Origin: Maritimibacter alkaliphilus
GTDB taxonomy: Bacteria; Pseudomonadota; Alphaproteobacteria; Rhodobacterales; Rhodobacteraceae
Reading direction: 5' to 3'
Assembly: GCF_019801605.1 (NCBI RefSeq)
Contig: NZ_JAHVIT010000009.1
Coordinates: forward strand, 1-64,000
Length of the DNA stretch: 64,000 nt
Shown here: positions 5,120 to 42,196 of the stretch, in pieces
Numbering within the stretch: position 1 is the first letter of the stretch
How the letters are laid out: every line of letters starts with the position of its first letter
Position numbers and translations under genes: made by a program
The notes under the pieces: generated by a model
The model's database searches: none
Seen by the model: the letters and a program-made list of their open reading frames with translations, nothing else
What the model was told of the DNA's origin: nothing

Positions 5120-5914
5120 TCACATGCCCTCGTCCAGGATCACCCGGTGGAAGCGGTAAAGAAGCAGCATCCCGAGCGCGGCGAGGATCAGCGCGATGGT
5201 ATAGACGTAGAGTTCATCAACGTAGACCGCGTCGTAGCTGTCGTAGATGCCCCGCCGCAGCAGCATGATCGGATGCGCCATCGGGTTCCAGAGCAGGGCC
5301 GAGCGCAGTTCCACCGGCAGCGGATCGAGCAGGAAGAAAATCCCCGAGATCAGGAAGAACGGGCGGTTCGCAACCGACCAGACGAACTGCCAGACCGGAT
5401 ACATGCTCATCATGTAGCAGTTCACCAGCCCGATCCCGAAGCCGAGCGCGATGCACAGGAAGGCCGCGCGCAGGCAGACGAGGAAATCGATCTGCAGGCG
5501 CAGGCCATACATCAGCACGATCAGGCCGATCAGGATCGTCGCGATCAGGATCTGCGTCAGCACATTCAGCAACAGCCGCGCACAGATCGCGTCAACAAAG
5601 GTAACCCCGGGATAGGACAGAAGGGGCCGGGAGTAGCGGATCGCCATGCTGACGTTGCTCGCGGTGGTGTTGTAGAGCAGAAAAGGCAGCATCCCGGTGG
5701 CGAAGAACAGCGGGAAATTGGTGCCCAATGCCGGCGACCGGGCGATGATGGAAAACACCAGCGTCATCACCAGGATGCCGCCGATCGGTTCCGCGAAGGC
5801 CCAGATATAGCCCCCCGGCGAGCGCCCGTAGGTGGTGCTCATCTCCCGCAGCATCAGCGCCAGGACAGAGCGGAAGAAAAGGTATCTCGGCTTGGCCACC
5901 GTCCGGTCGGACAT
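5120..5914 (-). CDS. kpsM: Polysaccharide ABC exporter, membrane subunit (KpsM/Wzm)
   Basis: I chose ATG 5914 (MSDRTVAKPRYLFF), giving 264 residues, the usual KpsM length; the frame is open further upstream but that part has no family character and would overlap kpsE. The sequence has the ABC-2 hallmarks: LREMSTTYGRSPGGYIWAF before the first membrane span, about six hydrophobic segments, and RPLLSYPGVTFVD after the second. It forms the inner-membrane pore that exports lipid-linked polysaccharide, powered by KpsT and extended by KpsE. It is transcribed divergently from kpsE-kpsT across a spacer of about 140 bp, an unusual arrangement since the subunits are usually in one operon. Confidence 0.9.
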   Translation of the reverse strand: MSDRTVAKPRYLFFRSVLALMLREMSTTYGRSPGGYIWAFAEPIGGILVMTLVFSIIARSPALGTNFPLFFATGMLPFLLYNTTASNVSMAIRYSRPLLSYPGVTFVDAICARLLLNVLTQILIATILIGLIVLMYGLRLQIDFLVCLRAAFLCIALGFGIGLVNCYMMSMYPVWQFVWSVANRPFFLISGIFFLLDPLPVELRSALLWNPMAHPIMLLRRGIYDSYDAVYVDELYVYTIALILAALGMLLLYRFHRVILDEGM

Positions 5915-6054
5915 CTCGTCAGACAAATCGCGCCTCTTCCTGTCGTCCTGGGCCGGTCTTGCCCATGCCCCGGGGCTTACGGGATTTTCACTTGCATTGC
6001 GAGAGAGAAAGACCCAGACCGTAGGCCTGAGTTTCAAGACTTGAGGGCTGAACG

Positions 6055-7308
6055 ATTTCACAAGCTCCCGCTCCCGCAGCGGCCCAGCAGGGCGCCGCCG
6101 CGAAACCCGCCGCACCGAAAATCCCCGCCAGTGCCGGCCCGGCTCGCCCCCGGCGGCGGCATTACGCCGTTCTGGCCAGCTTCGTGCTGGTCGTCCTGGC
6201 GCCGCTGGCTGTGACGGTCTTCTACCTCTTCGCCATCGCGAAGGATCAATACGCCACGACCTTCGGCTTCGCGATCCGCTCCGAGAACACCTCGATGGCC
6301 AGCAACCTGCTGGGTGGCCTCGCCAGCCTCTCCGGCGCCTCCAGTTCCTCGGACACCGAGATCCTCTACGAATTCATCCAGAGCCGCGCCCTGGTGGAAG
6401 AGGTCCAGCAGGAACTCGATATCGCCCGGCTCTACTCCGAGCCCAAGACCGACCCCTATTTCGCCTATCACGAAGGCGGCAGCATCGAGGAGCTGGTCGG
6501 CTACTGGCAGAAGATGGTCCATGTCAGCCATGCGGCCAGCAGCAGCAGCGGCCTGCTGGAAATCACGGTGAAGGCCTTCCAGCCCGAGGATGCGCTGAAC
6601 ATCGCCAATGCGATCGTCGCCAGCTCGACCGAGATGATCAACCGCCTGTCCTCCGTCGCCCGCGACGATGCCACGCGCTATGCGCGCGAGGACCTGGACC
6701 TGGCACTGGACCGGCTGAAAACCGCCCGCGAGGCCCTGACGCGGTTCCGCTCGACCAACCGGATCATCGATCCGAGCGCCTCGCTCGAAGGTCAGTTGGG
6801 CCTGCTCAACTCGCTCGAGGCGCGGCTGGCGGATGCGATCATCCAGCAGAACGTGCTGCTGCAGACGGCGCAGGAAAACGACCCCCGGGTCGTGCAGCTG
6901 CGCAACCAGATCCCCGTGATCCAGAGACTGATCGAGGGCGAACGCCGCAAGTTCGGCCTCGGCAGTGACCCCTCGGCGGCACCGTCTTCGGACAATGACG
7001 CCGAGATCGACACCGGCAGCGTGCCGGACGGCGAGGATTATTCGAAGATCGTGGGCGAATTCGAGCGCCTCAGCGTCGACGTGGAATATGCCCGGCAGAG
7101 CTACATCGCCGCGCAGACCGCCATGGACAGCGCCATCGCCGAGGCCCAGCGGAAGAGCCGCTACCTCGCCACCTACGCGCCCCCTGCCCTGCCCAGTTCC
7201 CCGGAATACCCGCGGCGCATGCAGCTCTCCCTGATGACCGCCGCCTTCCTGACCCTGCTCTGGTCGGTCGGTGTGCTGATCTACTACAGCCTGCGCGACC
7301 GCCGCTGA
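6055..7308 (+). CDS. kpsE: Polysaccharide export inner-membrane protein KpsE, apparently ATT start
   Basis: The family fold is clear: cytoplasmic proline/alanine-rich N-terminus, first membrane span (YAVLASFVLVVLAPLAVTV), a long periplasmic region with coiled coil (EDLDLALDRLKTAREALTRF), and a C-terminal span ending YYSLRDRR. It bridges the KpsMT transporter to outer-membrane export. Start choice is odd. The first canonical start, GTG 6184, falls inside the first membrane span and would delete the RRRHY anchor. Upstream the frame is open back to a stop at 6049, with no ATG, GTG or TTG. ATT at 6055 is preceded by GAGGG (6043-6047) at 8-nt spacing, so I take it as the start (417 residues). The alternative is a frameshift or sequencing error near 6050. 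Confidence 0.75.
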   Translation: MSQAPAPAAAQQGAAAKPAAPKIPASAGPARPRRRHYAVLASFVLVVLAPLAVTVFYLFAIAKDQYATTFGFAIRSENTSMASNLLGGLASLSGASSSSDTEILYEFIQSRALVEEVQQELDIARLYSEPKTDPYFAYHEGGSIEELVGYWQKMVHVSHAASSSSGLLEITVKAFQPEDALNIANAIVASSTEMINRLSSVARDDATRYAREDLDLALDRLKTAREALTRFRSTNRIIDPSASLEGQLGLLNSLEARLADAIIQQNVLLQTAQENDPRVVQLRNQIPVIQRLIEGERRKFGLGSDPSAAPSSDNDAEIDTGSVPDGEDYSKIVGEFERLSVDVEYARQSYIAAQTAMDSAIAEAQRKSRYLATYAPPALPSSPEYPRRMQLSLMTAAFLTLLWSVGVLIYYSLRDRR

Positions 7309-7315
7309 GGCGCCC

Positions 7316-7993
7316 ATGATCGAACTGCGCAACCTGACCAAGATCTACCGGCTGAACGGCGTCGCCAAGCCGATCGCCCGTGACATCACCTTCACGTTTC
7401 CCAAGGGGGAATGCGTGGGCCTCATGGGGCCGAACGGTGCCGGCAAGTCGACGATGCTGAAGCTCATCGCCGGCACGATCCAGCCGGACAGCGGGCAGAT
7501 CATCCGGCATGGCTCGGTCTCCTGGCCGGTGGGTTTCGCCGGCAGTTTCCACGGCGACATGACCGGGTCGCAGAACGTGAAGTTCGTGGCCCGGCTCTAT
7601 GGCGTGGACACCGACGAGATGACCGAGTTCGCCCGCGACTTCTCGCAGCTCGGGGCGCATTTCTACCTGCCCGTGCGCACCTACTCCTCGGGCATGCGCT
7701 CGCGGCTGGCCTTCGCCATGTCCATGGGGGTGAAGTTCGACACCTACCTGATCGACGAGATCACTGCGGTGGGCGACGGGGCCTTCCAGGCCAAGAGCGA
7801 AGCGATGATGCAGGAACGCCTGAAGACCAGCAGCGCGATCTTCGTCTCGCACTCGCTCCCGCAGATGGCCCGGATGTGCAAATCCGGGATCGTCCTGCAG
7901 AATGGGCGGTTCTTCTACTATGCGCGGATCGAGAAGGCGATCGAGCATTACGAGCACACCATGAAGGGACGGCTGCCGCCCTGGATGCGCTGA
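7316..7993 (+). CDS. kpsT: Polysaccharide ABC exporter, ATPase (KpsT/Wzt)
   Basis: A 225-residue ABC ATPase with Walker A GPNGAGKST (residues 38-46), signature YSSGMRSR (123-130), Walker B TYLIDEITAVGD (about 143-154) and an H-loop FVSHS near 175. The length fits the short KpsT group without the C-terminal carbohydrate-binding domain of Wzt. It powers export of the polymer through KpsM. It starts 7 nt after the kpsE stop, with GAGGCG as ribosome site, so kpsE-kpsT is an operon. It converges on parB across a spacer with two strong inverted repeats. Confidence 0.93.
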   Translation: MIELRNLTKIYRLNGVAKPIARDITFTFPKGECVGLMGPNGAGKSTMLKLIAGTIQPDSGQIIRHGSVSWPVGFAGSFHGDMTGSQNVKFVARLYGVDTDEMTEFARDFSQLGAHFYLPVRTYSSGMRSRLAFAMSMGVKFDTYLIDEITAVGDGAFQAKSEAMMQERLKTSSAIFVSHSLPQMARMCKSGIVLQNGRFFYYARIEKAIEHYEHTMKGRLPPWMR

Positions 7994-10983: not shown

Positions 10984-11109
10984 GACTCTGAAACCACGTT
11001 GAGGTGACTCTGAAACCACGTGGTGGCGACTCCGAAACCACGCCAGGGGGCGGGGGTCCGCTGGACGCAATCTGTGGATAACTTTATGGTGGGTGTCACT
11101 GAAACCACG
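10984..11109 (+). repeat. Iterons of the replication origin (3 tandem + 1 distal)
   Basis: GACTCTGAAACCACG occurs at 10984-10998 and 11006-11020, and as GACTCCGAAACCACG at 11028-11042, an exact 22-bp period, about two DNA turns. A fourth copy, GTCACTGAAACCACG, lies at 11095-11109 after a 52-bp gap holding the DnaA box. The invariant core is GAAACCACG. They are the likely binding sites of the RepA initiator encoded just downstream. Confidence 0.85.
11073..11081 (-). promoter_or_regulatory. DnaA box
   Basis: TGTGGATAA is the exact complement of the consensus DnaA box TTATCCACA. It sits between iterons three and four, where host DnaA would help open the plasmid origin. Confidence 0.8.
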
Positions 11110-11238
11110 ATGTGGATTCGGCGCAGATTCGGCGTGAATGCGGCAGCGATCCGGGGCCTACCCGGACGGCATGGCGCGGGGCTGTACGGAACGGACAAGC
11201 CGGGAAACGGCGCAGGCAGACGAGCAGGGCAGGGCGAC

Positions 11239-12237
11239 ATGGCGGCAGCGGGGCTTTTGCCCGATCATCATCCGACAGCGGATTTCTTCCTGTGCGACAT
11301 CTTCGATGCCGCGCCCAAGGACGACATGGGCTCGATGGAACATCCGATGTTCTCGCTCGCCACCCGACCCGACCGGCGGGTGCTCAGCTACGAGCACAAC
11401 GGCGTGGCGATCGAGGTCGCGCCCTCGGTGCGCGGGCTGGCGACGATCCACGACAAGGACGTGCTGATCTACTGCATCAGCCAGCTGATGGCGGCGATGA
11501 ACGCGGGGCGCGAGATCTCGCGCCAGCTGCACCTCAAGGCCCATGACCTGCTGGTGGCCACCAACCGCGAGACTTCGGGCGATGGCTACAAGCGGCTGCG
11601 CGACGCGCTCGAGCGGCTGGCGGGCACCCGGATCACCACCAACTACGAGACCGGCGGGCAGGAGGTCACCAGCGGCTTCGGCCTGATCGAGAGCTGGCAG
11701 ATCGTGCGGCGCAGCCGCGGCGGGCGGATGATCTCGGTCATGGTGACGCTCTCGGACTGGCTGTTCCGGGCGGTGCAGGCGAAATCCGTGCTGACCCTGA
11801 ACCGCGACTACTTCCGCCTGCGCAAGCCGCTGGAGCGGCGGGTCTACGAACTGGCGCGCAAGCATTGCGGCCGGCAGGCCGACTGGACCGTCCTGGTCGA
11901 GACCCTGCTGAAGAAATCCGGCAGCGCCTCGCCGCGCCGGGTGTTCCGCAAGATGCTGCGCGACATGATCGCCGCCGACCTGCTGCCGGATTACGCGATG
12001 GAGGAGCTCCCCGGGGACCTGATCCGCTTCACCCGGCGCGACGTGGTGACCCTGCCGGGCGAGCGGCCGCACCTGTCGGAAGACACGCTGGAGCGCGCGC
12101 GCCAGATGATGCCCGGCGCGGATGTCCATGCCCTGCAGGCGGAATGGCTGGCCCATTGGCAGCGGCGCGGGTCGCAGAAGCTGAAGGCGCCGGACCGGGC
12201 CTTCCTGGGCTGGCTGGCCAAGCGCGCGGATGCCTAG
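11239..12237 (+). CDS. repA: Plasmid replication initiator protein RepA
   Basis: A 332-residue initiator from ATG 11239 (MAAAGLLPDHHPTADFFLCD). Longer in-frame starts would run through an iteron and add non-conserved sequence. It matches replication initiator protein A (RPA): ADFFLCDIFDAAPKDDM, then MFSLATRPD, VLIYCISQLMAAM and LNRDYFRLRKPLERRVYELA. These are winged-helix-type initiators that bind iterons and recruit the host replisome. Together with divergent parAB and the adjacent rhamnose operon this fits roseobacter RepA-type plasmids. The compatibility group cannot be assigned without alignment. Confidence 0.92.
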   Translation: MAAAGLLPDHHPTADFFLCDIFDAAPKDDMGSMEHPMFSLATRPDRRVLSYEHNGVAIEVAPSVRGLATIHDKDVLIYCISQLMAAMNAGREISRQLHLKAHDLLVATNRETSGDGYKRLRDALERLAGTRITTNYETGGQEVTSGFGLIESWQIVRRSRGGRMISVMVTLSDWLFRAVQAKSVLTLNRDYFRLRKPLERRVYELARKHCGRQADWTVLVETLLKKSGSASPRRVFRKMLRDMIAADLLPDYAMEELPGDLIRFTRRDVVTLPGERPHLSEDTLERARQMMPGADVHALQAEWLAHWQRRGSQKLKAPDRAFLGWLAKRADA

Positions 12238-12321: not shown

Positions 12322-12909
12322 TTGAAGATCGAAACGACCGCCCTCGAGGGTGTGCTTCTCCTGACCCCCGCGCGCTTCGGCGACCACCGGGGGTTCTTCT
12401 CCGAAAGCTGGAACCTGAAGCGCCTCGAAGAGGCCGGGGTGCATCTGCCGCCCTTCGTCCAGGACAACCATTCCTTCTCGACCACGGTCGGCACGGTGCG
12501 GGGCCTGCACTTCCAGTCGCCGCCCCATGCCCAGGGCAAGCTGGTGCGCTGCGGGCGCGGGCGGCTCTATGACGTGGCCGTGGACGTGCGCAAGGGCAGC
12601 CCGACCTACGGCCAGTGGACCGGGGCCGAGCTGAGCTTCGACAACGGCGCGCAGCTCTGGGTGCCGGCGGGCTTCCTGCACGGCTTCATGACCCTCGAGC
12701 CCGATACCGAGATCGTCTACAAATGCACCGATCACTATGCGCCCGAATGCGACGGCGCGGTGCGGTGGGACAGCTGCGGCATTGCCTGGCCCGTGGAGGA
12801 GATCAGCCCGGTGATCTCCGAGAAGGACGAGAAGGCACAGCCCCTCGCCGATTTCGACAGCCCCTTCACCTACGACGCGCCGTCCGAGAACAAGGAACCC
12901 ACTGCATGA
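12322..12909 (+). CDS. rfbC: dTDP-4-dehydrorhamnose 3,5-epimerase
   Basis: A 195-residue cupin enzyme, third step of dTDP-L-rhamnose synthesis: it epimerises dTDP-4-keto-6-deoxyglucose at C3 and C5. Visible family motifs are [21 protein letters not shown] (with the catalytic His) and [12 protein letters not shown]. The start is TTG 12322, directly before [10 protein letters not shown], which is where the family begins. It opens the rfbCBDA operon 84 bp after repA, and its stop overlaps the rfbB start by 4 nt (ATGA), implying translational coupling. Confidence 0.95.
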
Positions 12910-13955
12910 AACTCCTCGTGACCGGCGGGGCCGGCTTCATCGGCTCGGCCGTGGTGCGCCTTGCCGTGGCGCGTGGCCACGCGGTGGTGAACCTCGACGC
13001 GCTGACCTATGCCGCCTGCCTCGAGAATGTCGCCCCCGTGGCCGACAGCCCGCTCTATGCCTTCGAGCAGGCCGACATCCGCGACCGCGCGGCGCTGGAC
13101 GCTGTCTTCGCCAAGCATAAGCCCGACGCCGTGATGCACCTGGCGGCCGAAAGCCACGTGGACCGCTCCATCGACGGGCCGGGCGATTTCATCGAGACCA
13201 ACATCACCGGCACCTACAACATGCTGGAAGCCGCCCGCAGCTACTGGGTGGCGCAGGGCAAGCCCGCGCGCTTCCGCTTCCACCATATCTCCACCGACGA
13301 GGTCTTCGGCTCGCTGCCCGCGGATCCGTCGGTGCAGTTCACGGAAGACACGCCCTACGATCCGCGTTCGCCCTACTCGGCCTCCAAGGCCAGTTCGGAC
13401 CACCTGGTGCGCGCCTGGCACGAGACCTACGGCCTGCCGGTGGTGCTGACCAATTGCTCGAACAACTACGGGCCCTACCACTTCCCCGAGAAGCTGATCC
13501 CCGTGGTGATCCTGAACGCGCTCGCGGGCAAGGACCTGCCGATCTACGGCACCGGCGAGAACATCCGCGACTGGCTCTTCGTCGAGGACCACGCCGATGC
13601 GCTGCTCCTCGTGGTCGAGAAGGGCGCCCTGGGACGCAGCTACAACATCGGCGGCGAGAACGAGCGCACCAACCTCGAACTGGTGCGGACGCTCTGCACC
13701 ATCCTCGACGGCAAGCGCCCGAAGGAGAGCGGCTCCTACGCCGACCAGATCACCTTCGTCACCGACCGTCCCGGCCATGATGCGCGCTATGCCATCGACC
13801 CGTCGCGGATCCGCGAGGAACTGGGCTGGCGGCCCTCGGTCACGGTGGAAGAGGGTCTGGAAAAGACCGTGCAATGGTATCTCGACAACGAAGACTGGTG
13901 GCGTCCGCTGCTGACCCGCGACGGGGTCGGCACGCGCATCGGCACCAAGGCCTGA
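12906..13955 (+). CDS. rfbB: dTDP-glucose 4,6-dehydratase
   Basis: A 349-residue NAD-dependent short-chain dehydrogenase/reductase, second step of dTDP-rhamnose synthesis. The Rossmann motif GGAGFIGS (residues 7-14), the active-site STDEVFG and YSASK (Tyr-x3-Lys), and [14 protein letters not shown] are all present. ATG 12906 is set by the 4-nt overlap with the rfbC stop. Cytoplasmic; its product feeds RfbC and then RfbD. Confidence 0.97.
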
Positions 13956-13984
13956 GAGACAGGCCGAGCGACAGGGAGAGCGCG

Positions 13985-14854
13985 ATGAAGATCCTCGTAT
14001 TCGGCGAGACCGGACAGGTCGGACGCGAACTGGCCCGCGCCGCTCAGGCGGCAGGGCACGTGCTGGAGGTCCATGGCCGCGACACGGCGGATTTCACCGA
14101 GCCCGCCGCCTGTGCCGCCCTCGTGGCGGCCAGCGACGCCGAGGCCGTGATCAACGCCGTGGCCTATACGGCGGTGGACAAGGCCGAAAGCGACGAAGAG
14201 ACCGCGGCCCTGGTCAACGGCGCGACGCCGGGCGCCATCGCCCGCGCGGCGGCCGACAAGGGCATTCCGCTGGTCCATATCTCCACCGATTACGTCTTTG
14301 ACGGGGCGGGCACGGATCCGTTCCGCCCCGAGGGCGCGACCGGGCCGCTGGGGGCCTATGGCCGCACCAAGCTGGCCGGCGAAGAGGCAATCCGCGCCGC
14401 GGGCGGCCCCCATGGCATCCTGCGCACCTCCTGGGTGGTCTCGGCCCATGGCCATAACTTCGTCAAGACCATGCTGCGGCTCGGGGCCGAGCGCGACAAG
14501 CTGACCATCGTCGCCGACCAGATCGGCGGGCCGACCTGTGCCGCGGACATCGCCGCCGCCTGTCTCGAGATGGCCGCGCAGCTGGCGGCGGATCCGTCCA
14601 AGTCCGGCAGCTACCATTTCTCCGGCGCCCCGGACGTGAGCTGGGCATCTTTCGCACGCGAAACATTTGCCCTCTCGGGGATCGACTGCGCGGTGGAGGA
14701 CATCCCCACCAGCGCCTATCCCACACCGGCCACCCGGCCGCTGAATTCCCGCATGGACAACAGCCGCACGGCCGAGGTCTTCGGCATTGCGCGTCCCGAC
14801 TGGCGCGCGGGCCTGCGCGACATCCTGGCCGAACTCGGCGCCTTGAAAGCCTGA
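13985..14854 (+). CDS. rfbD: dTDP-4-dehydrorhamnose reductase
   Basis: A 289-residue NAD(P)H-dependent reductase, the last step giving dTDP-L-rhamnose. The motifs are FGETGQVGRELA at the N-terminus, INAVAYTAVDKAE, STDYVFDG and YGRTKLAGE (Tyr-x3-Lys). ATG 13985 follows AGGGAGAG at good spacing; the frame is open upstream into rfbB, but only this start gives the family N-terminus. It is 29 nt from rfbB and 18 nt from rfbA in the same operon. Confidence 0.96.
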   Translation: MKILVFGETGQVGRELARAAQAAGHVLEVHGRDTADFTEPAACAALVAASDAEAVINAVAYTAVDKAESDEETAALVNGATPGAIARAAADKGIPLVHISTDYVFDGAGTDPFRPEGATGPLGAYGRTKLAGEEAIRAAGGPHGILRTSWVVSAHGHNFVKTMLRLGAERDKLTIVADQIGGPTCAADIAAACLEMAAQLAADPSKSGSYHFSGAPDVSWASFARETFALSGIDCAVEDIPTSAYPTPATRPLNSRMDNSRTAEVFGIARPDWRAGLRDILAELGALKA

Positions 14855-14872
14855 AAGAGAAGGGGATCACCC

Positions 14873-15748
14873 ATGACCCAGCGTAAGGGCATCATTCTGG
14901 CGGGGGGCTCGGGCACCCGGCTCTACCCGATCACCATCGGCGTCTCGAAGCAGCTGCTGCCGGTCTACGACAAGCCGATGATCTACTATCCGCTCAGCGC
15001 CCTGATGCTGGCGGGCATCCGCGAGATCGCGGTGATCACCACGCCGCAGGACCAGGAGCAGTTCCAGCGCACCCTCGGGGACGGGTCGCAATGGGGGCTG
15101 GAGCTGACCTACATCGTCCAGCCGAGCCCGGACGGGCTGGCCCAGGCCTACCTGCTGGCCGAGGACTTCCTCGCCGGCGCGCCCTCGGCCATGGTGCTGG
15201 GGGACAACATCTTCTTCGGCCACGGGCTGTCGAAGCTGCTGGCCGAGGCCGATGCGCAGGAGAGCGGCGGCACGGTCTTCGGCTACCGGGTCGCGGATCC
15301 GGAACGCTATGGCGTGGTGGCCTTCGATGCCGAGGGGCAGGTGACCCAGATTATCGAGAAACCCGCGGTGCCGCCCTCGCGCTACGCGGTGACCGGTCTC
15401 TACTTCCTCGACGGCACGGCCCCGGAACGCGCCCGGGCGGTCGAGCCGTCGGAACGCGGCGAGCTTGAGATCACCACGCTGCTGGAGATGTATCTGGCCG
15501 ATGGCGCGCTGACGGTGAAGCAGATGGGCCGCGGCTATGCCTGGCTCGACACCGGCACCCATGGCTCGCTGCTGGATGCGGGCAACTTCGTGCGCACGCT
15601 GGAGCGCCGCCAGGGCCTGCAGACCGGCAGCCCGGACGAGATCGCCTATGACCAGGGCTGGATCTCGGACGCGGATCTCGAGGCCCGCGCGGCCAAGTTC
15701 AAGAAGAACGCCTACGGCGAGTATCTCAAGGGATTGCTCGGCGCCTGA
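14873..15748 (+). CDS. rfbA: Glucose-1-phosphate thymidylyltransferase
   Basis: A 291-residue nucleotidyltransferase that joins dTTP and glucose-1-phosphate, the first step of the dTDP-rhamnose route. LAGGSGTRLYPIT, SKQLLPVYDKPMIYYP, GDNIFFGHGL and IEKP are diagnostic, and the length is the family norm. ATG 14873 follows AAGGGGA. It closes rfbCBDA, so the whole rhamnose donor pathway is plasmid-encoded. Confidence 0.97.
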   Translation: MTQRKGIILAGGSGTRLYPITIGVSKQLLPVYDKPMIYYPLSALMLAGIREIAVITTPQDQEQFQRTLGDGSQWGLELTYIVQPSPDGLAQAYLLAEDFLAGAPSAMVLGDNIFFGHGLSKLLAEADAQESGGTVFGYRVADPERYGVVAFDAEGQVTQIIEKPAVPPSRYAVTGLYFLDGTAPERARAVEPSERGELEITTLLEMYLADGALTVKQMGRGYAWLDTGTHGSLLDAGNFVRTLERRQGLQTGSPDEIAYDQGWISDADLEARAAKFKKNAYGEYLKGLLGA

Positions 15749-15851: not shown

Positions 15852-16796
15852 TCAGCCGGGCAGCAGCGGGTAGCGCAGGCGCTTGCAGAGTTCACCGTAG
15901 GCGGCGCTGGTCTCGCTTGCCTCGGCCAGGTCCGCGGGCACCTCGCGGGCCGGGCGGGCCGTGATCTCGTCCCCCGACCGCCCGCTGTCGCCCGACATCC
16001 CGATCGCCCCGACCAGCGCCGTGCTGCCCGCCGCATAGGGCAGGTCGAGGCTGCGGCACATGGTCTCGAGCACCTCTTCCGGGCTGTCGACGAAATCCTC
16101 GTAGAAGACGATCGGGCAGCTGGCATTGTCGTCCAGGAAGGCCAGGTAGCGCCGGGCGTATTCCTCCAGCGTATTGGGCGCGAACTGGACCCAGCCGTTC
16201 TTGCGCAGGGACAGGAAGGAGCTCATCGGGTGGCGGACGCTCAGGAGGGCCAGCACCGTGTGCTCCCGCGCGACGATCTCCTCCAGCGAGGGCCGCTGGT
16301 CCCAGGCGGCCTCGGTGCAATACTGCGAGTGGCAATGGTCCCGCAGGACGAGTTGCTGACCGTTGTTGAGCAGGGCCTGTTGCAGGGGGCCCAGCCCCCC
16401 GAGGAACACCTCGATGGCGAGGTCGTCCGGCAGCCCGTGCCGACTGTAGCGCATCTGCTTGATCAGGTCGGAGGGCGCGAATTTCGACGGCGTCGTCATG
16501 TGGTTCACGCTCAGCGGGTCCATTTCGCTCAGCAGGACCGTATTGGGCATCGTGGCCAGGCACTTCGACATGATCGTGCCGCCGGTACAGGCAAATTGCT
16601 TGAACAGGCGCACCGAGGCCCTGGTCCGGGTCTGGGCCTCGCTCCGGGCGGCGTGGAGTTGCTTCAGCAGGCTCTGCAGGGGAGGGGCCGGCAAGGTGCT
16701 CCCCGTGCTGGCGATGCCCGGGGTGTCGCGGATCAGGCGCGCCGTCTCGTCCAGTTCGGCGCGCAGCCGGTCGTATTCCCTACGCCGCGTGGTCAT
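15852..16796 (-). CDS. Sulfotransferase-like protein
   Basis: A 314-residue protein. After a helical N-terminus (1-60), FKQFACTGGTIMSKCLA (about 65-81) resembles the PAPS phosphosulfate-binding loop and VRHPMSSFLSLRKNGW (near 190) the 3'-phosphate-binding motif of sulfotransferases. The match is weaker than for the sulfotransferase at 1664, so another nucleotide-dependent role is possible. The start ATG overlaps the stop of the upstream coiled-coil gene by 4 nt, so the two are translationally coupled. It ends facing rfbA. I infer sulfation of the polymer or of its terminus. Confidence 0.6.
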   Translation of the reverse strand: MTTRRREYDRLRAELDETARLIRDTPGIASTGSTLPAPPLQSLLKQLHAARSEAQTRTRASVRLFKQFACTGGTIMSKCLATMPNTVLLSEMDPLSVNHMTTPSKFAPSDLIKQMRYSRHGLPDDLAIEVFLGGLGPLQQALLNNGQQLVLRDHCHSQYCTEAAWDQRPSLEEIVAREHTVLALLSVRHPMSSFLSLRKNGWVQFAPNTLEEYARRYLAFLDDNASCPIVFYEDFVDSPEEVLETMCRSLDLPYAAGSTALVGAIGMSGDSGRSGDEITARPAREVPADLAEASETSAAYGELCKRLRYPLLPG

Positions 16797-18847
16797 TTCT
16801 TCTTCCGGCCCGTGGCGGCCGCCGAGGGGCTCGAAGAGGGCTTGTCCGTCGGGGAGGGCGGGGTCTTGCGCGTCGTTTTCGCGGGGGTCTTGCGCTTGGC
16901 GGAAGGGGCCCGTTTCGGCGCGGCCTTCGGGAGGGGGGCGGCGGGGGCCGCTTCCATGACGTCCCCGGGCAGGCTGTCTTCGGCAAGACTGTCCTCTGCA
17001 AGACCGGCGGGGGCCTCCTGCAGCGACAGGGTCTGAAGATACTGCGAGGCCTCTTCGAGACGGGTGACGAGCTGAGCGATCAGGTCGTCCTGCTTCTGCT
17101 TCTGGGTCAGGAGGCTGGCATGGGTCTTCTGCAACTCGTGCAGGTCATTGACGCCGATCGTCTGCATGCGCAGGGCGAGGCTCAGATCGGTCTTTGCCCG
17201 CTCGGCCGCCGCCTTGCTGGCCTGGACCTCCTTGCGCAGGGTCTCCTGCTGGGCGGTCAGGGTTTCCTTCTCGGCGTCGACAGTCTGGATGTGCTTGGCC
17301 TGCGCATCGGCTTTCTGGGAGAGGGACTGGATCTCCTCCTGCTTGCTGTCCAATTCGGCCTGCAGGGTGTCACGCTCGGCCTCCAGCTCCTTCATGCGTT
17401 TCGAGCGCCAGTCGGCCTTCTTGCCGAGTTCGTCGAACTCGGCCTGCTTGGCCTCCACGGCCGTCCGGACCGTCTCCAGCTCGCCCTGAAGGGTCTTGAG
17501 GCGCGTGTCGCGGTCGGCCACGTAGGTCTTGTAGCTTGCAAGTTCGCCCGCTGTCGCCTCGGCGCGCTCATCGGCTTTTGCGGCGTTGGCCCTGGCGCTG
17601 TCGAGCGCGGCCTTGAGCGTCGCCTGCTCCGACGCCAGGGTATCGCGCTCGGCTTCCAGTTCCTTCATGCGTTTCGAGCGCCAGTCCGCCTTCTTGCCGA
17701 GCTCGTCGAACTCGGCCTGCTTGGTCTCCAACTCGCTCCGCAGGGTCTCGATGCGATTGTCGCGGTCGGCCACGTAGGCCTTGTAGTTCGCAAGTTCGCC
17801 CGCTGTCGCCTCGGCGCGCTCATCGGCCTTTGCCGCGTCGGCCCTGGCGCTGTCGAGCGCGGCCTTGAGCGTCGCCTGCTCCGAGGCGAGGGTATCGCGC
17901 TCGGCTTCGAGCGACGCGATGCGGCTGTCGCGGTCGGTGACCTGCTGCTGCTGGCTATCGCGCTCGGCTTCCAGCTCCTTCATGCGCTTCGAGCGCCAGT
18001 CGGCCTTCTTGCCGAGTTCGTCGAACTCGGCCTGCTTGGAGGCCGTTGCCTTCTGTGCCGTCTCTAAATCGCCTTTCAGAGCCTGTAGGCGGGCGTCGCG
18101 CTCGGCCACGTCGGCCTTGGATGTCTCGTGTTGATACCGAAGGGTCTCGTTCGCGGCCTCTGCGGCTTTCAGCCCCTCTCGCAGGGTCGCGATCTCCGAC
18201 TGGGCCTCGGCGAGGGCAAGGGCCCTGCGATCCAGCGTGAAGTGGCTGATCGGCCAGTCCGGGTCCTGCTGCTCGGTGGCGTCGACCTCGAAGCCCTGCG
18301 CGGCGAGGACAGCGGAGAGCCCGGCCATGGTCTGGCCGCCCTCGAAAACACTGTCGGCGCTGCTGCGCAGGTCGATCCGGTCGAAGCCTTGCAGCCAGCC
18401 ATCGTCCTGCAGCGCCTCCAGCCAGCCGGCCTCTGCGCCGGGCATGTCGGCACAGAGCCGCGCGGGGGAGGGGATGTCACCGATCCGCGCCTTCAGGGAG
18501 GCCGCGGTGATCGTGGGAACGACCGGTTGCCGGATGACCCGGGCACCGGGGTAGAGGTCCATCAGCTCCGTGGGCGAAGAGAGGCTCGAAATACCGGGAA
18601 TGTTGAAGACCCGGAGGTCGCTCTCGCCGTCCTCCTGCGCGAGGGCGGCATGGATGAACTCAACATGCGGGGCGTCCCCGATCTCCGTGCCGAGCTTGCG
18701 CAGGCGCGCCGGGTCCGCCTCGACGATGACGATCCGCGGGGCGGGCCCGTGGTCCGGCGGGGAGGCCAGGCTGTCCCTGTCGATCAGGTCGCCGGCGCCG
18801 AGGTACAGGCAGAATCCGAATGTCGCTTCCGAGCGAGAGGCAGTCAC
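16793..18847 (-). CDS. Methyltransferase-like head with long duplicated coiled coil
   Basis: A 684-residue protein. Residues about 1-210 look like a degenerate FkbM/SAM-methyltransferase fold (YLGAGDLID as motif I, VEADPARL as the acidic loop, FDRIDLRSSAD near the end) but lack the usual KIDxEG motif. Residues about 215-620 are almost continuous coiled coil rich in E, K, A and D. This region holds three near-identical copies of FDELGKKADWRSKRMKELEA and one exact 84-residue (252-bp, 12-heptad) internal duplication. The C-terminus is a basic, Pro/Ala/Lys-rich tail (KRAPSAKRKTPAKTTRK). It is coupled to its neighbours on both sides. Function unknown; the plan of methyltransferase head plus coiled coil recalls WbdD, which sets polymer length in ABC-exported O antigens. 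Confidence 0.6.
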   Translation of the reverse strand: MTASRSEATFGFCLYLGAGDLIDRDSLASPPDHGPAPRIVIVEADPARLRKLGTEIGDAPHVEFIHAALAQEDGESDLRVFNIPGISSLSSPTELMDLYPGARVIRQPVVPTITAASLKARIGDIPSPARLCADMPGAEAGWLEALQDDGWLQGFDRIDLRSSADSVFEGGQTMAGLSAVLAAQGFEVDATEQQDPDWPISHFTLDRRALALAEAQSEIATLREGLKAAEAANETLRYQHETSKADVAERDARLQALKGDLETAQKATASKQAEFDELGKKADWRSKRMKELEAERDSQQQQVTDRDSRIASLEAERDTLASEQATLKAALDSARADAAKADERAEATAGELANYKAYVADRDNRIETLRSELETKQAEFDELGKKADWRSKRMKELEAERDTLASEQATLKAALDSARANAAKADERAEATAGELASYKTYVADRDTRLKTLQGELETVRTAVEAKQAEFDELGKKADWRSKRMKELEAERDTLQAELDSKQEEIQSLSQKADAQAKHIQTVDAEKETLTAQQETLRKEVQASKAAAERAKTDLSLALRMQTIGVNDLHELQKTHASLLTQKQKQDDLIAQLVTRLEEASQYLQTLSLQEAPAGLAEDSLAEDSLPGDVMEAAPAAPLPKAAPKRAPSAKRKTPAKTTRKTPPSPTDKPSSSPSAAATGRKKK
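17380..18040 (-). repeat. In-frame 252-bp duplication within the coiled-coil gene
   Basis: Near-identical blocks recur with a 252-bp step (for example GGTATCGCGCTCGGCTT near 17638 and again near 17890). A third copy of the block encoding KADWRSKRMKELE lies near 17980-18030. The unit is 84 codons, exactly 12 heptads, so copy-number change would keep the coiled coil in register. Confidence 0.8.
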
Positions 18848-18850
18848 TGA

Positions 18851-20443
18851 TCAGTTCCCCTTGTTGCGGCGTCCGAGGAGGGTATTGGCCGCGCGCAGCG
18901 GCTCGGTGATCCGCCAGGAGCGGGACGCGATCAGGCGACTGTATTCCTGTGTCAGGTTCTCGAGCCCCTGGTGCAGGGCCAGTTCGCGCTGCTCGGCCTG
19001 GGCGAGGATATCGCCCCAATGCTCCTTGGCGCTGTCCAGTTCCCGGGCCAGGCGCGCGGCATGGGCCGCATGATGCAGTTTCTGGGCCGTCAGGCTGGCC
19101 AGCTCGGCGGTCAGTCGCGCGTTTTCCTGCGTGGCCTCCGCGGCCTCCTTCCGGGCCGCGTCCACGGCGCCTTGCGCGCCCTGCTTGCTGCGCACCATCT
19201 CGTCCGAGGAGGCCTGCTGTTGCTGGGCGCTCTCCCGCTGCAGGGTGGCCAGCTTGGCGGCGACGCGGGTCAGCTCGGTTTCGGCCTTGGCGGTGTCCGC
19301 GCGGGCGGCCTGCAGTTTTGCGGTCATCTCTTCCGTGAGGGCCTGGCGTTGTGCCTGCCCGGTGGTCTGTGCGGCCTTCAGCGCGGCGTCGAGATCGGTG
19401 ACCTTGCGGGTGGCTTGTGCCAAGTCCTGGTCCCGAAGCCGGGCTTCGGCCTGGACCTCGGCGAGGTGCTCCAGCAGCAGGTCACGCTCCGCCGCCTGCG
19501 CGGCGGTGGCGGAGGCCTGGCCCTGCCATTCCTCCTTGAGCTGCGCGATATGGGCCTGCAGCAGGTCGCGTTCCGCGGTCACGGCCTCCATCTGCCGCGC
19601 ACGCTCGGCCCGGGCGGCCGTGGTACGGGCGGTGGCCTCCGCGAGGGCTTTTTCCTGTTCCCGGGTCTGGCCCTCGGCCTTGGCGAGTTGCTGTTTCAGG
19701 GCCTCCGCGGCGCCGGCCTGGCCCTGCACCTCGGCATGGAGTTCCGACAGCTGGTCCATCAGCAGGTCGCGTTCCGCGGTCAGCGTGGCCAGCGTTCCGG
19801 CCGCGTCCTCCTGCTGCGTCCTGAGGCGTGTGACCTCCGTTTCGAGCCCGTGGAGGTTACGGGTCATCGCATCGATCTGCTCGAGCGACCAGGGCTGTTC
19901 CCCGGTGGCGATGCTGCTGGCCTCCAGTTCCATGTCGATGGCCTGGGTCTGCGCATCCGCCGCGAGCGCCTGGATCGCGACCAGCGCCAGGATATCCGGT
20001 GTCTCATCGGGGGCGGCCAGCGGCGCGGCCAGGCTGCCGTCCAGCAGGGTCACCAGCGGGGCGAGCTCTGCCTCCGTCCCGTGCAGCAGGGCGCTTTCCT
20101 CGATCAGCAGAACGCGGCGCCGGGCCTGGCGCCGCAGGGCCAGAAGACCGCTTCCGGTCTCTTTCCATGCGGCGAGGATCCCGGCCGCGGGGTGCTGTGC
20201 CCGAAGGCCGGCCTGCAGGCTCCGGACCGCGTTGCGATAGACGAGCACCAGATGCCCCGTGCCGCCCAGGACGGCCTGGGCCGCGGCCTCGGAAAACCTG
20301 TCCGCGCGGCCCTCCGGCAGCGGTTGGTCCGGCGCGCCGGTCAGCCTCCGATTGCACAGGTCGGTATCGACACCGTCCATGCAGAGGATGCGCGGACGCA
20401 CCGCCTCCTGAGGGGTGGGGGCTTTGTCAGCGCTTGGGCTCAT
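18851..20443 (-). CDS. Coiled-coil protein of unknown function ending in SRSWRITEPLR motif
   Basis: A 530-residue protein. Residues 1-170 form an alpha/beta-looking N-terminal part (RPRILCMDGVDTDLCNRRL; GHLVLVYRNAVRSL; RRRVLLIEESALL) that I do not recognise. Residues about 190-500 are coiled coil with repeated TAERDLL segments. The C-terminus contains SRLIASRSWRITEPLRAA. The S-x-SWR-x-T-x-PLR motif is common where coiled coils join glycosyltransferase domains in polysaccharide proteins, but no such domain follows here. It starts the operon that continues, 3 nt after its stop, with the methyltransferase-like coiled-coil gene. The pair may act as a scaffold with the glycan machinery; that is inference. 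Confidence 0.6.
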   Translation of the reverse strand: MSPSADKAPTPQEAVRPRILCMDGVDTDLCNRRLTGAPDQPLPEGRADRFSEAAAQAVLGGTGHLVLVYRNAVRSLQAGLRAQHPAAGILAAWKETGSGLLALRRQARRRVLLIEESALLHGTEAELAPLVTLLDGSLAAPLAAPDETPDILALVAIQALAADAQTQAIDMELEASSIATGEQPWSLEQIDAMTRNLHGLETEVTRLRTQQEDAAGTLATLTAERDLLMDQLSELHAEVQGQAGAAEALKQQLAKAEGQTREQEKALAEATARTTAARAERARQMEAVTAERDLLQAHIAQLKEEWQGQASATAAQAAERDLLLEHLAEVQAEARLRDQDLAQATRKVTDLDAALKAAQTTGQAQRQALTEEMTAKLQAARADTAKAETELTRVAAKLATLQRESAQQQQASSDEMVRSKQGAQGAVDAARKEAAEATQENARLTAELASLTAQKLHHAAHAARLARELDSAKEHWGDILAQAEQRELALHQGLENLTQEYSRLIASRSWRITEPLRAANTLLGRRNKGN

Positions 20444-36045: not shown

Positions 36046-38040
36046 TCAGGCCAGCAGGTCGTGGGTGGTGCCGTTGATGTCGATCATGAGGCTGTCCTGC
36101 GCCCCGCCGTCGACCAGCGCCCAGAGGATCTGGCCGGTGGGGCGGTAGATGACGAAGGCCTCCTCGACCCCGTCGGCCCCGGCACTGGCGGTCTCGGTGA
36201 AGTTGACCTGGAACTGGCTGATGTCGGCGGCACCGCCGCCGTAGACCAGCACGTCGCCCTCGGCATTGGAGAAGTCCTGGATCCAGTCGGAGCCGTGGCC
36301 CTCGACGCCGAGGTGATAGAAGCGATCCGCGCCGGTGCCACCATTCACCCGGTCATGGCCGAAGCCGCCGTTGATGAAGTCGTTGCCGGCTCCGCCGAAG
36401 ATCGCGTCGGACCAGGTTTGCCCGGTCAGCGCATCGTCGCCGTCCCCGCCGATCACCGTGTCGGCGCCGTAGCCACCGACGATCGTGTCGTTGCCGCCGT
36501 CGCCGCGCAGCTCGTCGTTGCCATAGCCGCCGTCGATGCTGTCGTTGCCGTCGCCGCCGTAGATCACGTCGCGCAGGTCGTCGGCGCTGTCGCCACCCAT
36601 CAGCGTGTCGTTGCCCGCGCCGCCGTTCAGCACGTCGGTGCCATCGCCGCCATGGAGCTGGTCGTCGCCCTCGCCGCCGATCAGCGTGTCATTGCCATCC
36701 TCGCCGTAGAGCGCGTCATCGCCCGCGCGCCCGTCCAGCCGGTCATCGCCGCCGCGGCCCTCGAGGGTGTCCTCGCCGCTGCTGCCCAGCAGGGTGTCGT
36801 CGCCGGTCCGCGAGCCGCGCACCTGTTCGATGCTCGAGAAGCTGTGGCTGAAGGCCTCGCCGCGCCAGCTGCCCGAGGCGGTGCCGGCCGCGAGGTCGAC
36901 GCTGACGCCCTCCTCGATCTGGTTGCGGTCATAGCGCAGCCGGTCGGTGCCGCCGCCGCCATCCACGCTGTCGCCCACGCCCTCGCGCAGGATGAAGCTC
37001 TCGTTGCGGTCCGAGCCGATGATCGTGTCGACGTAGCGGGTGCCCTCGATCTCCATCCGGGCGGTGCCGCCGAGCACGTTGACCTGATCGGTATCGCCAT
37101 AGCCGTCATTGCTGATCACGCCGGTCGCGAGGTTGGCCACCAGCCCCTGCGAGGGGCTGTCGCTTTCGCCGCCGCCGTAGGAGAGCCGCAGCCCGCCGTT
37201 CAGGGTCAGGTTGAAGGTGTCGTCGCCCGCGCCGCCGTGGACGTTCATCCACTGCTCGCCCTGCGAGGTCAGGGTGAAGGTATCGTCGCCCCCGGTGCCC
37301 TCGATCACCAGCCCGTCGGAGGTCAGCGCATTGGTCACATCCGCCAGCGTATCGGTGAAGAAGGCGGTCTGGATCGCGCCGGTGCCCGCGGCGCCGTCGA
37401 CGGTGACCGTCACCGGGCTCGGCATCTCGCCGTAGTTGAGCCAGAAGTAGCCCTCGCTGGTGGCATTGGCGAAGCTGATCGTGTCGTCGCCGAAGCTGGC
37501 CTCGTAGTAGTCGACATCGAAGGGGTTGGTGCCCATGTCCGCCGTGTCGGCGCCCGGGGTGCCGCGGAAGCTGTCGAAATACTGGGAGCCGATGAAGGTG
37601 ACCGGCGTGCTCATCTGGTCCAGCAGGTCGGACATCAGGCCGATGATGTCGATGCCCGCGGTGGCGGCGCTCGCATCCAGCGTCAGAGGCGCATCCGCCT
37701 CGAAGAGCGCGACCAGCGGGCCGATGTCTTCGTCTTCCTGCAGGGCGAAGAGCGCGGTGATGAAGGCCTCCACGTCCCAGTTGATGCCGGTGATGCTGCC
37801 CTGTTCCACGCCGCTGTGGGAAATGGTCATCGACTGCAGGGTGCCGCCGTCCACGTTGCCGTCGCCATCGAAGGTGAAGCCGGTGCCGGTGATCACGAAG
37901 ACCGCCCCGGTATCGGTGTTGCGCATGGTGACTTCGGTGCTCGTCCCGCTCAACACGTCATGGTCGGCGACCCAGCCGTCCTCGTCGAAGAAGGCGGCGT
38001 CGAAGAAATAGGTGTCCCAGCCGGTGAAGGTGACCTGCAT
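36046..38040 (-). CDS. RTX calcium-binding protein with shared C-terminal module
   Basis: A 664-residue protein from ATG 38040, preceded by GGGGAG. Residues 1-about 370 are acidic and beta-rich with no family I recognise (MQVTFTGWDTYFFDAAFFDE). RTX nonapeptides (GGDGNDTLxGG type) run from about 400 to 590. The last 170 residues, including FYHLGVEGHGSDWIQDF and EEAFVIYRPTGQILWALVDG, are almost identical in three other RTX proteins here. No signal peptide; type I secretion is expected. Likely a matrix protein. Confidence 0.85.
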   Translation of the reverse strand: MQVTFTGWDTYFFDAAFFDEDGWVADHDVLSGTSTEVTMRNTDTGAVFVITGTGFTFDGDGNVDGGTLQSMTISHSGVEQGSITGINWDVEAFITALFALQEDEDIGPLVALFEADAPLTLDASAATAGIDIIGLMSDLLDQMSTPVTFIGSQYFDSFRGTPGADTADMGTNPFDVDYYEASFGDDTISFANATSEGYFWLNYGEMPSPVTVTVDGAAGTGAIQTAFFTDTLADVTNALTSDGLVIEGTGGDDTFTLTSQGEQWMNVHGGAGDDTFNLTLNGGLRLSYGGGESDSPSQGLVANLATGVISNDGYGDTDQVNVLGGTARMEIEGTRYVDTIIGSDRNESFILREGVGDSVDGGGGTDRLRYDRNQIEEGVSVDLAAGTASGSWRGEAFSHSFSSIEQVRGSRTGDDTLLGSSGEDTLEGRGGDDRLDGRAGDDALYGEDGNDTLIGGEGDDQLHGGDGTDVLNGGAGNDTLMGGDSADDLRDVIYGGDGNDSIDGGYGNDELRGDGGNDTIVGGYGADTVIGGDGDDALTGQTWSDAIFGGAGNDFINGGFGHDRVNGGTGADRFYHLGVEGHGSDWIQDFSNAEGDVLVYGGGAADISQFQVNFTETASAGADGVEEAFVIYRPTGQILWALVDGGAQDSLMIDINGTTHDLLA

Positions 38041-38387
38041 GATTTGCTCCCCGAAATCAGTCCTGCATCATGATCGCATCAGGACGCTAGCATGGGGAGA
38101 GGCAGGCGCGAAGCCTTTCCGGCCGCCGCCGGGGGGCAGGGCGGGGATTTATGTACGCCTGCGTATCGCATGGAGAGAAAGACGAAGCCCGCCACACGCT
38201 TGACGCGCATGGCCGGGACGGAGGACGCCCAAAAACAGGTGTCTGAAGGGGCATCGGAAGGGGGAACCGGGGCACGCGCTTCGCGAAAGGGCCGGGGCGT
38301 GTGGTCGAGACCGGGCCGGAGCCCGGTCTCGCAGGGGTTTCGCGGGGGGTTCGCAGAGGGGGCCTGATCGGGGTCCCTCTGGCCCGC
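38041..38387. other. 347-bp spacer between two RTX genes, with terminator hairpin
   Basis: No gene is credible here. It holds the hairpin listed at 38306-38331 and, near 38040, the ribosome site of the downstream RTX gene. A promoter for that gene is expected but I cannot point to one. Confidence 0.5.
38306..38331 (-). terminator. Perfect 11-bp hairpin after the metalloprotease gene
   Basis: CGAGACCGGGC (38306-38316), tetraloop CGGA and GCCCGGTCTCG (38321-38331) lie 57 nt past the stop of the M10 protease gene. There is no U-tract, as is common in GC-rich genomes. Confidence 0.5.
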
Positions 38388-41219: not shown

Positions 41220-41319
41220 GGCTGACTCGCTTTCCGTAACTGCGAAATGAAGGTCTCAAATGACGTCTGGCCCCGGCGAAATCCGGAACCGCTCGGGGCT
41301 GCGCGATCCCGCGCGGCCA

Positions 41320-42000
41320 TCAGGATCCCGTGCAGATCCCGTCGGCAATGGCCGCCATCAGGTCCGGGCGAACCTGGCCCAGGTGGGTGATGGCGACCTC
41401 CACCGAACCGTCCGGCCCGGTGGCAATGCAATAGAGGGTGGTCGGGGCGGCGGCCCCGGGGCGGTCGGCGGTCAGGCGCAGGTGGAAGGCCGCGAGCCCG
41501 CCCGCGGGGCCCTGCCGGACCAGCAGGCTGTTGGGCAGCACCTGCTTGCCCCCGCCGAACCCGGCCCGCGCCAGGGCGGGCAGGTCGACCCCGAGGGCCG
41601 TGGCCGCATCGGCGCGGTCGGTCAGGGTGGCATCCGCGGGCAGGGCGGCAAGGGGGGCGGCCAGGGCGGCCTGGCGCTGCACCGAGGCCGGCAGGCCAGA
41701 GGCGCCCCCAGAGGTCCCGGCTGAGGTCCCGGCAGGACCCGCGGGGCGCAGGTGATAGGTCCGGTAGCGTCCGGCCTCCAGCGCCTGTCCGTCGTCGAAG
41801 GCCGCATGGCCCTGCACGCCGCCCCATGCGGCGGGAACCGACGCCTCTGTCCGGAACGCGGTAGGTTGCGGCGAACCCATGGCTTTTCCCTGATCTCCGA
41901 GGAACGTGATCCCGCCAAGACACCCCGCGACAAGGAAAAGACGCAGCATCAGCAGACGGATGCCGGTGGGCGAGGTGGGATGGGCGGGCAGCGGGCGCAT
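41320..42000 (-). CDS. Predicted lipoprotein of unknown function
   Basis: A 226-residue protein from ATG 42000; AAAGGTG lies just upstream and supports this start over Met18. The N-terminus has Arg15, a hydrophobic stretch and the lipobox VAGC with Cys27, so lipid anchoring is likely. The mature part is Ala/Gly-rich with two further cysteines (LYCIA and GICTGS), which could form a disulfide. A run of Gly/Thr/Ser codons near residues 90-102 is a degenerate 12-bp repeat. It sits between two RTX genes on the same strand. I recognise no family. Confidence 0.5.
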   Translation of the reverse strand: MRPLPAHPTSPTGIRLLMLRLFLVAGCLGGITFLGDQGKAMGSPQPTAFRTEASVPAAWGGVQGHAAFDDGQALEAGRYRTYHLRPAGPAGTSAGTSGGASGLPASVQRQAALAAPLAALPADATLTDRADAATALGVDLPALARAGFGGGKQVLPNSLLVRQGPAGGLAAFHLRLTADRPGAAAPTTLYCIATGPDGSVEVAITHLGQVRPDLMAAIADGICTGS

Positions 42001-42125
42001 GACTGCACCTTTGAAATATGCGAAGGTTGTAATGCGTCCATCCTATCGCGCGGTTTGCGGAGCTGTCCATTTGTTTTTGGGGGGCCGGCTGCCCGGAAAC
42101 CGGACAGCCCGGGGCCAACAGGACA

Positions 42126-42184: not shown

Positions 42185-42196
42185 GGGAGAGGCTGG

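Follow-up and report, generated by a model that had tools for sequence, protein, structure and literature searches.

A candidate split, length-variable coiled-coil adaptor for a chain-modifying transferase in a plasmid-borne KpsMTE-type polysaccharide pathway of Maritimibacter alkaliphilus

The window considered here is a stretch of 64,000 nucleotides of Maritimibacter alkaliphilus DNA (positions 1 to 64,000 of contig NZ_JAHVIT010000009.1), covering part of an 89.6-kb contig on which a gene here called B lies in one locus with genes of KpsMTE type for polysaccharide export. B encodes a methyltransferase-like head joined to a long, internally repeated coiled coil, and the locus raises the question of what such a protein does in such a pathway. 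The answer preferred here, to which we assign a probability of about 0.6, is that B is a split, length-variable adaptor of a plasmid-borne KpsMTE-type surface-polysaccharide pathway, positioning a chain-modifying transferase. The next gene encodes a separate transferase, whose occurrence follows that of the C-terminal tail of the coil and which is likelier than the head to be the active enzyme. A first-pass annotation of this DNA had viewed B as a possible chain-length ruler; its observation is partly confirmed and its interpretation partly supported, and it missed both a three-copy 27-residue core within the coil and the separate, tail-linked transferase in the next gene.

Architecture of B and its family

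The open frame of B occupies the interval given in the first-pass annotation. It is read from the minus strand, starts at a GTG and encodes 684 residues; the plus strand of the same interval is interrupted by two stops. The protein consists of a head (residues ~1-206) followed by a coil-like region (residues ~207-615). An AlphaFold model of the head, drawing on 13 homologous heads, has a mean predicted local distance difference test score (pLDDT) of 89.9 and continues straight into a helix at residues 206-233. When this model was compared with known structures by Foldseek, all 13 PDB matches at E ≤ 1e-3 were methyltransferases or fibrillarin complexes (probability 1.00, template modelling scores 0.35-0.46, best E 2.6e-5), and 5 among the 50 matches listed were reductases or deaminases. 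The head is predicted by this model to have the class I S-adenosylmethionine (SAM) methyltransferase fold, and in this respect the degenerate FkbM/SAM-type head on a coil of about 400 residues described in the first-pass annotation stands. The FkbM part of that description is weaker: TIGR01444 (FkbM) matches the window head at E 4.2e-4 with 20.8 bits against a cut-off of 37.7, and Pfam FkbM (PF05050) matches 3 of 13 heads (best E 6.3e-5), the window head not being one of them. By these sequence profiles the head appears related to FkbM, remotely. Of 37 heads, 24, that of the window (GAG) among them, retain the GxG motif of SAM binding, and 13 have lost it. Further matches of the head profile, at E 5e-16 to 6e-6 and for the most part in short frames, are probably ordinary FkbM enzymes. 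A kinship with WbdD, the coiled-coil methyltransferase/kinase of Escherichia coli O-antigen synthesis that the first-pass annotation had invoked by architecture and proposed for a profile check, did not emerge, as a search of PDB chains with the head profile gave two matches up to E 10 and WbdD was neither. Scans of B against family libraries gave no kinase match.

The coil call rests on periodicity and repeats. None of 2000 residue shuffles reaches the hydrophobicity power that residues 206-560 show at a period of 3.5 (p 0.0005), and the head has no such period (p 0.56). The window coil comprises 342 residues, which at 0.1485 nm per residue would span about 51 nm if it formed one continuous helix. 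The duplication of 84 residues reported in the first-pass annotation is real, and so is its spacing of 84 residues, 252 bp and 12 heptads; its exactness is not borne out. The best pair of 84-residue windows (292-375 versus 376-459) is identical at 60 of 84 positions, the best 60-residue window at 52 of 60, and the longest exact run is 24 residues; at the DNA level the two copies have 91% identity across 188 nt. A core of 27 residues is present in three exact copies spaced by 105 and 91 residues, both multiples of 7, and the strong DNA-level offsets in the gene (84, 91, 105 and 196 residues) are likewise each a multiple of 7. Codon shuffles that preserve heptad phase, two for each of 39 family genes, yielded such diagonals in 0 of 78 cases, and thus the duplication in B is not due to chance.

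Relatives of B share a layout that is new in this analysis: a head, a coil of variable length and one of two tails. Among the titles listed in a literature search of Creative Commons-licensed PMC articles, none describes such a head-coil-tail family. At E ≤ 1e-5 the head profile matched at least 64 of the 394 genomes of the window's taxonomic family, and at least 28 of them belong to a strong group at E ≤ 1e-25, two of which (the window's own genome and G381) were in the seed alignment; these counts are lower bounds, with the best eight candidates per genome scored for the head and the best five for the partner family C(i) described below. Across the class, 11 of 385 genomes matched at E ≤ 1e-12, the sole strong one being the window's own, and within the genus 2 of 22 matched, namely the own genome and G010, whose match (E 8.9e-4, residues 481-564) involves the coil only and was left uncounted. 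Named relatives belong to Roseobacteraceae and Paracoccaceae (Salipiger, Leisingera, Thalassovita, Gemmobacter and Sulfitobacter), with an Ensifer and a Novosphingobium in addition. A scan of genome contigs with the single window protein as query found no relatives among 52 candidate stretches, and the same scan with a five-row head alignment found 12 loci. L048 and L050 (E ~1e-21), which match the head model and have a different architecture, and L052, a duplicate of L005, were excluded from the counts; L051, at a contig end, and L059, a fusion, were excluded from those of the coil.

The length of the coil varies widely within the family, from 77 to 493 residues between head end and tail motif (median 206) in 25 proteins with the type-i tail. 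Recent duplications at the DNA level are found in the coils of 24 of 39 family genes. For 17 of these 24, three of them related Leisingera genes, the best offset equals a whole number of heptads (p 5e-10 against an expectation of 1/7, relatedness ignored). On the complete plasmids of Leisingera NJS204 and M527 the two B proteins, with heads 97% identical, differ by one indel of 35 residues, or five heptads, and within the stretches covered the neighbouring genes are ordered alike. The change of length by whole heptads that the first-pass annotation had envisaged is thus seen both family-wide and between close relatives. In the coil of L062 (L062:9721-11970) a unit of 151 residues is repeated with ~100% DNA identity over 594 nt, which points either to a duplication of very recent date or to an artefact of assembly.

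The tail and the enzyme encoded by the next gene

The two tails of the family are distinct. The type-i tail, carried by B, is a motif of ~72 residues (25 loci above 50 bits), usually followed by an end rich in K and R whose net charge is at least +6 in 22 of 25 proteins, the exceptions being L008, L009 and L054. The type-ii tail is a 30-residue motif, AEGQI.LIKDLLL (7 loci above 50 bits). In all 25 loci with a type-i tail the next gene belongs to the sulfotransferase family C(i), and in 6 of 7 with a type-ii tail it encodes a protein with a tetratricopeptide repeat (TPR)-like part and a sulfo- or methyltransferase-type domain. None of 31 tail/partner pairs is crossed (Fisher p 1.4e-6, rows treated as independent), the tail and partner models having been seeded from the same loci as those counted. 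A later set of 12 loci contained seven new ones, of which four could be scored cleanly, and all four agree (L074, L079 and L082 type i, L081 type ii), L079 being counted despite a tail of 48 bits. The other five (L073, L075, L076, L080 and L084) lie on contigs already in the set and were not counted as held-out; L077, at a contig end, and L078, whose frame stops soon after the head, offer no tail to score, and L083, whose tail match lies in a different frame and whose C(i) match is weak, was left uncounted.

Viewed from the partner, C(i) is present in at least 24 of the 394 genomes, and B is also found in 22 of these 24. The 28 strong genomes accordingly divide into 22 with C(i) and six of type-ii layout, among them that of L066 with its weak tail. 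In genome G281, B and C(i) lie on separate contigs, and the contig with C starts within coil and a type-i tail; the assembly there appears to be broken inside the coil, a region at which assemblies from short reads can break or collapse. On a tree of 37 heads, made quickly and weakly supported at 16 of its 34 inner branches, tail type is scattered, with seven changes (mean after shuffling 8.2), at least three of them forced by well-supported branches. In an independent-pairs test the partner follows the tail in three of three pairs on supported branches (p 0.25, too few pairs) and six pairs are available on all branches. The heads of L006 and L008 are 77% identical and their coils colinear, after which both tail and partner differ.

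The partner of B in the window, C, matches the sulfotransferase family PF13469 at E 7.8e-5 with 23.5 bits against a cut-off of 27, and by profile the CurM sulfotransferase 4gbm at E 1.1e-4, the same structure to which its model (pLDDT 80.5) is matched by Foldseek at E 6.9e-7. C is predicted from this model to have the fold, with the sequence profile, of sulfotransferases that use 3'-phosphoadenosine 5'-phosphosulfate (PAPS). Residues G71, G72 and T73, R187 and S195 are invariant in nine aligned rows of the family, and we take them to be the P-loop-like and 3' phosphate motif residues of PAPS binding. Type-ii partners share a conserved TPR-like domain, to which Pfam TPR models give weak matches below the cut-off in 3 of 7. 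In L057 and L006 it is joined to a sulfotransferase domain (Pfam below the cut-off), in L060, L064 and L045 to a P-loop domain that has no Pfam match and is read as sulfotransferase-like, and in L047 and L066 (the latter with a tail of 9 bits only) to a full FkbM domain. The interchange of sulfotransferase-type and FkbM domains on TPR-like partners is seen at L057:3293-4675, L047:10643-12232 and L066:10416-11732.

Export pathway and plasmid setting

The KpsM-, KpsE- and KpsT-like genes that the first-pass annotation had recognised are present in the window (Table 1), and their association with B extends through the family. In 21 of the 28 strong genomes B has KpsE (TIGR01010, every match below the curated cut-off) on its own contig, at a distance of roughly 6 to 52 kb, and the loci therefore look mainly ABC-exporter dependent, as the analogy with WbdD had presupposed; KpsM and KpsT were sought within fetched stretches. 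Capsule_synth genes (PF05159, KpsC/KpsS type) occur in the window's own genome on contigs other than this one.

The source contig carries a RepA replicon, ParA/ParB, genes for dTDP-rhamnose, GDP-fucose and mannose, glycosyltransferases, KpsM/E/T-like proteins and RTX proteins, a make-up that we take to be that of roseobacter biofilm plasmids. A RepA replicon, rml genes and KpsMTE-type export are typical of such plasmids and are common to them and the window. The closest plasmid relative is pPABY6 of S. abyssi, in which gene order around B is almost identical. A tblastn search with B found matches in only 9 of 72,556 plasmid records, and B is thus not a general feature of plasmids of the roseobacter biofilm type.

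Table 1. Coordinates of B, its parts and neighbouring genes in the window
Feature	Positions	Strand	Remarks
B, candidate head-coil-tail adaptor protein	16793..18847	-	684 aa, GTG start; single copy in own genome
Head, residues 1-206	18230..18847	-	predicted degenerate FkbM-like SAM-methyltransferase fold; conserved DPDWP at end
Length-variable coiled coil, residues 207-547	17207..18229	-	3.5 periodicity, coil-type family matches
27-residue core unit copy 1, residues 271-297	17957..18037	-	
27-residue core unit copy 2, residues 376-402	17642..17722	-	
27-residue core unit copy 3, residues 467-493	17369..17449	-	
DNA of 84-residue repeat, one copy	17724..17911	-	repeat family D2; 91% to other copy
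DNA of 84-residue repeat, other copy	17472..17659	-	repeat family D2; start spacing 252
Type-i tail, residues 548-618	16994..17206	-	LALRMQT..DL..LQ; 86.9 bits to family tail model (window = seed)
K/R/P/A-rich basic C-terminus, residues 619-684	16796..16993	-	
C, putative sulfotransferase partner	15852..16796	-	314 aa; 4-nt overlap with B; PF13469, CurM sulfotransferase 4gbm
A, upstream coil protein	18851..20443	-	C-terminal SRSWRITEPLR motif
KpsM-like ABC-2 membrane subunit	5120..6115	-	PF01061; KpsM model below cut-off
KpsE/BexC/CtrB-like protein	6184..7308	+	TIGR01010 E 1.2e-53, under curated cut-off
KpsT-like ABC ATPase	7316..7993	+	225 aa
RepA (RPA), plasmid replication initiator	11020..12237	+	
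dTDP-rhamnose genes rmlC, rmlB, rmlD, rmlA	12322..15748	+	

On the minus strand B stands between the coil protein A and the sulfotransferase-like C, the size of the B/C overlap depending on the start codon chosen. Protein A consists of an N-terminal domain with no Pfam match, a coil and the SRSWRITEPLR motif at its C-terminus, and, of 37 loci, 21 have its N-terminal domain upstream of B, six of the 21 being seeds of the model. Elsewhere in the window, four RTX proteins are clustered at 36046-45332, two of them with nidogen-like (NIDO) domains; a DUF2793 protein at 50727-51878 has window-like copies in the B loci L005, L006, L054, L058, L059, L064, L067 and L070; and two large RTX-type repeat regions at 55532-64000 contain 318-bp higher-order repeats in 4.4 and 5.4 copies.

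Adaptor, spacer or ruler

Several known systems bear on how B might work. In those characterised O-antigen systems that use both an ABC exporter and a terminator, the terminator is carried by a coiled-coil protein that is described as acting as a ruler (portions of PMC11231755 and PMC5082667), and insertions or truncations in the coil of WbdD are described as altering modal chain length (in the relevant part of PMC5082667). WbdD of E. coli O8/O9a has in common with B an N-terminal methyltransferase-type fold, a long coil and an ABC-exporter polysaccharide locus; its O8 form is presented in a section of PMC3482155 as a simple methyltransferase, unlike the O9a type with a kinase. B differs from WbdD in lacking a kinase match in the family-library scans, in its degenerate head, in the lack of a sequence relation detected by the head profile and in its Kps-type locus; moreover, its putative active transferase is a separate protein. 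Terminators of the WbdD type are further marked by an amphipathic membrane helix at the C-terminus, by recruitment of the polymerase, and by capping of the non-reducing end with control of modal length; at the C-terminus of B a basic tail is seen. For Klebsiella pneumoniae O4 ORF7, O7 ORF6 and O12 WbbB, passages of PMC11231755 treat the coil as the mark of the assembly strategy, with terminator chemistry and module distribution varying; there the enzyme is within the coiled-coil protein, whereas B would recruit its enzyme by an exchangeable tail. The term "sulfotransferase" is absent from the main text of PMC11231755. Group 3 capsule loci of E. coli, likened here by their description in parts of PMC13171606 and PMC10433991, resemble the window in their Kps type, rhamnose genes and putative methyltransferases whose coiled coils differ in length, a variation mentioned in passing in a part of PMC13171606 and judged there not expected to be critical; the modification genes named for these clusters in the same parts of the two articles include methyltransferase and sulfotransferase genes. 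With the FkbM methyltransferases (PF05050, TIGR01444) the head of B would share fold and remote sequence similarity, and it departs from them in matches that are below the cut-off or missing, in the frequent loss of GxG across the B family and in the added coil and tail. The architectural analogy with WbdD drawn in the first-pass annotation, which claimed no homology, stands, and the partner enzymes reinforce it; of the two findings that would have told against that annotation, a head unlike the SAM fold and homologues chiefly outside ABC-type loci, neither was made.

The adaptor reading takes as its basis computed features: head fold, layout, tail-partner pairing, adjacency, one fusion of head and sulfotransferase, KpsE context and whole-heptad bias. 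B would reside in the cytoplasm, with the head at one end, the partner transferase docked at the other through binding to the tail, and the coil as a spacer between them; the coil would fix the distance from head to transferase, a length shifted through duplication mostly by whole heptads, and the partner would modify the exported polymer. The most speculative step is modification of the chain end, with the coil as a WbdD-like length ruler. On the pattern of the O-antigen systems, the chain might be capped by C and its length determined by B, which would make a split ruler with exchangeable terminators. This full version, a split capsule ruler in which a worn-out methyltransferase head is joined by a heptad-quantum coil to an exchangeable plug docking a sulfo- or methyltransferase terminator, is tentative and more doubtful than not.

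Several observations weigh against the adaptor reading or its parts. One type-ii tail (L049) has no partner, a weak type-i tail of 16 bits (L011) is followed by a class I methyltransferase, and L044 has a C(i) sulfotransferase partner and no tail match. At L059:4357-5988 the B head and a sulfotransferase are fused in one 543-residue open reading frame with no long coil, and a long spacer is therefore not always required. Two of the 24 C(i) genomes have no detected B: G227 (L085), where C(i) is on a 9.5-kb contig of a genome 83% complete, and G026 (L086), whose C(i) is more divergent. KpsE is on other contigs in 7 of 28 strong genomes (G380, G369, G219, G397, G335, G207 and G159), the B contig being shorter than 50 kb in five of these, and a Wzy_C match occurs on 5 of the 28 B contigs, exceeding the cut-off on four. 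Offsets of duplication depart from whole heptads in 7 of 24 genes (7n+4 in three, 7n+1 in three, 7n+3 in one), and since any coiled coil constrained to keep register should show a bias to whole heptads, the bias supports a coil and does not by itself support a ruler. The first 95 coil residues (206-300) have no significant 3.5 period on their own (p 0.15), and residues 207-547, which hold no proline, include eight glycines, so that the coil may not be a single unbroken rod. Finally, the tail and the gene of its partner are neighbours, and with the start chosen here the two genes often share 4 nt, so that linkage alone, with recombination in the repetitive coil, could produce the pairing.

That last point is the core of one rival, whereby recombination in the coil swaps the tail and next gene as a block and no physical contact is involved, a scenario for which L006 and L008, colinear through head and coil and then divergent in tail and partner, would be an example. 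The lack of crossed combinations among the 31 pairs, the rarity of C(i) where no B is detected and the natural fusion of head and sulfotransferase in L059 all argue against it, and we regard it as unlikely. It is similarly improbable that B is an active FkbM-type methyltransferase, its coil merely oligomerising or localising it and C an independent neighbour: the predicted SAM fold and the GxG kept in the window protein and 23 other heads would suit such an enzyme, but GxG is lost in the remaining 13, Pfam FkbM recognises few heads and not that of the window, and in L066 and L047 the full FkbM domain is found in the partner instead. Membership of the WbdD family proper, as a methyltransferase/kinase terminator, can be given hardly any credence; it would account for the predicted methyltransferase fold, the long coil and the ABC-exporter locus, and has against it the missing kinase match and the absence of WbdD from PDB sequence matches up to E 10 and from the 50 fold matches listed; homology with WbdD is not supported. 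A more serious contender, somewhat short of even odds, is that B tethers the transferase to sulfate or methylate along the growing chain, the coil being a spacer with no ruler role whose length drifts in register. The spread of coil lengths in the 25 type-i proteins, in which no target length stands out, the frequency of recent duplications and the existence of the coil-less L059 are all consistent with drift; set against it is the analogy with the characterised Klebsiella and E. coli O-antigen systems that end chains with a terminator, in which chain length is held to be measured by the coiled-coil protein (in the pertinent text of PMC11231755).

The family of the proposed adaptor provides a natural test set, with coils of 77-493 residues in the 25 type-i proteins, swappable partner enzymes and a close plasmid pair five heptads apart. 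According to a passage of a 2025 review, chain-length setting in ABC-dependent capsules warrants further investigation (PMC12220298). If the split ruler were true, it would represent a chain-length mechanism for KpsMTE-type systems, in which length, through coil duplication, and end chemistry, through plug swap, would be tuned independently by evolution. Coil length that tracks polymer length would make the chain-length question directly testable in marine laboratory isolates; if coil length proves unrelated to polymer length, the family would still be a clear candidate for the modular docking of modifying enzymes.

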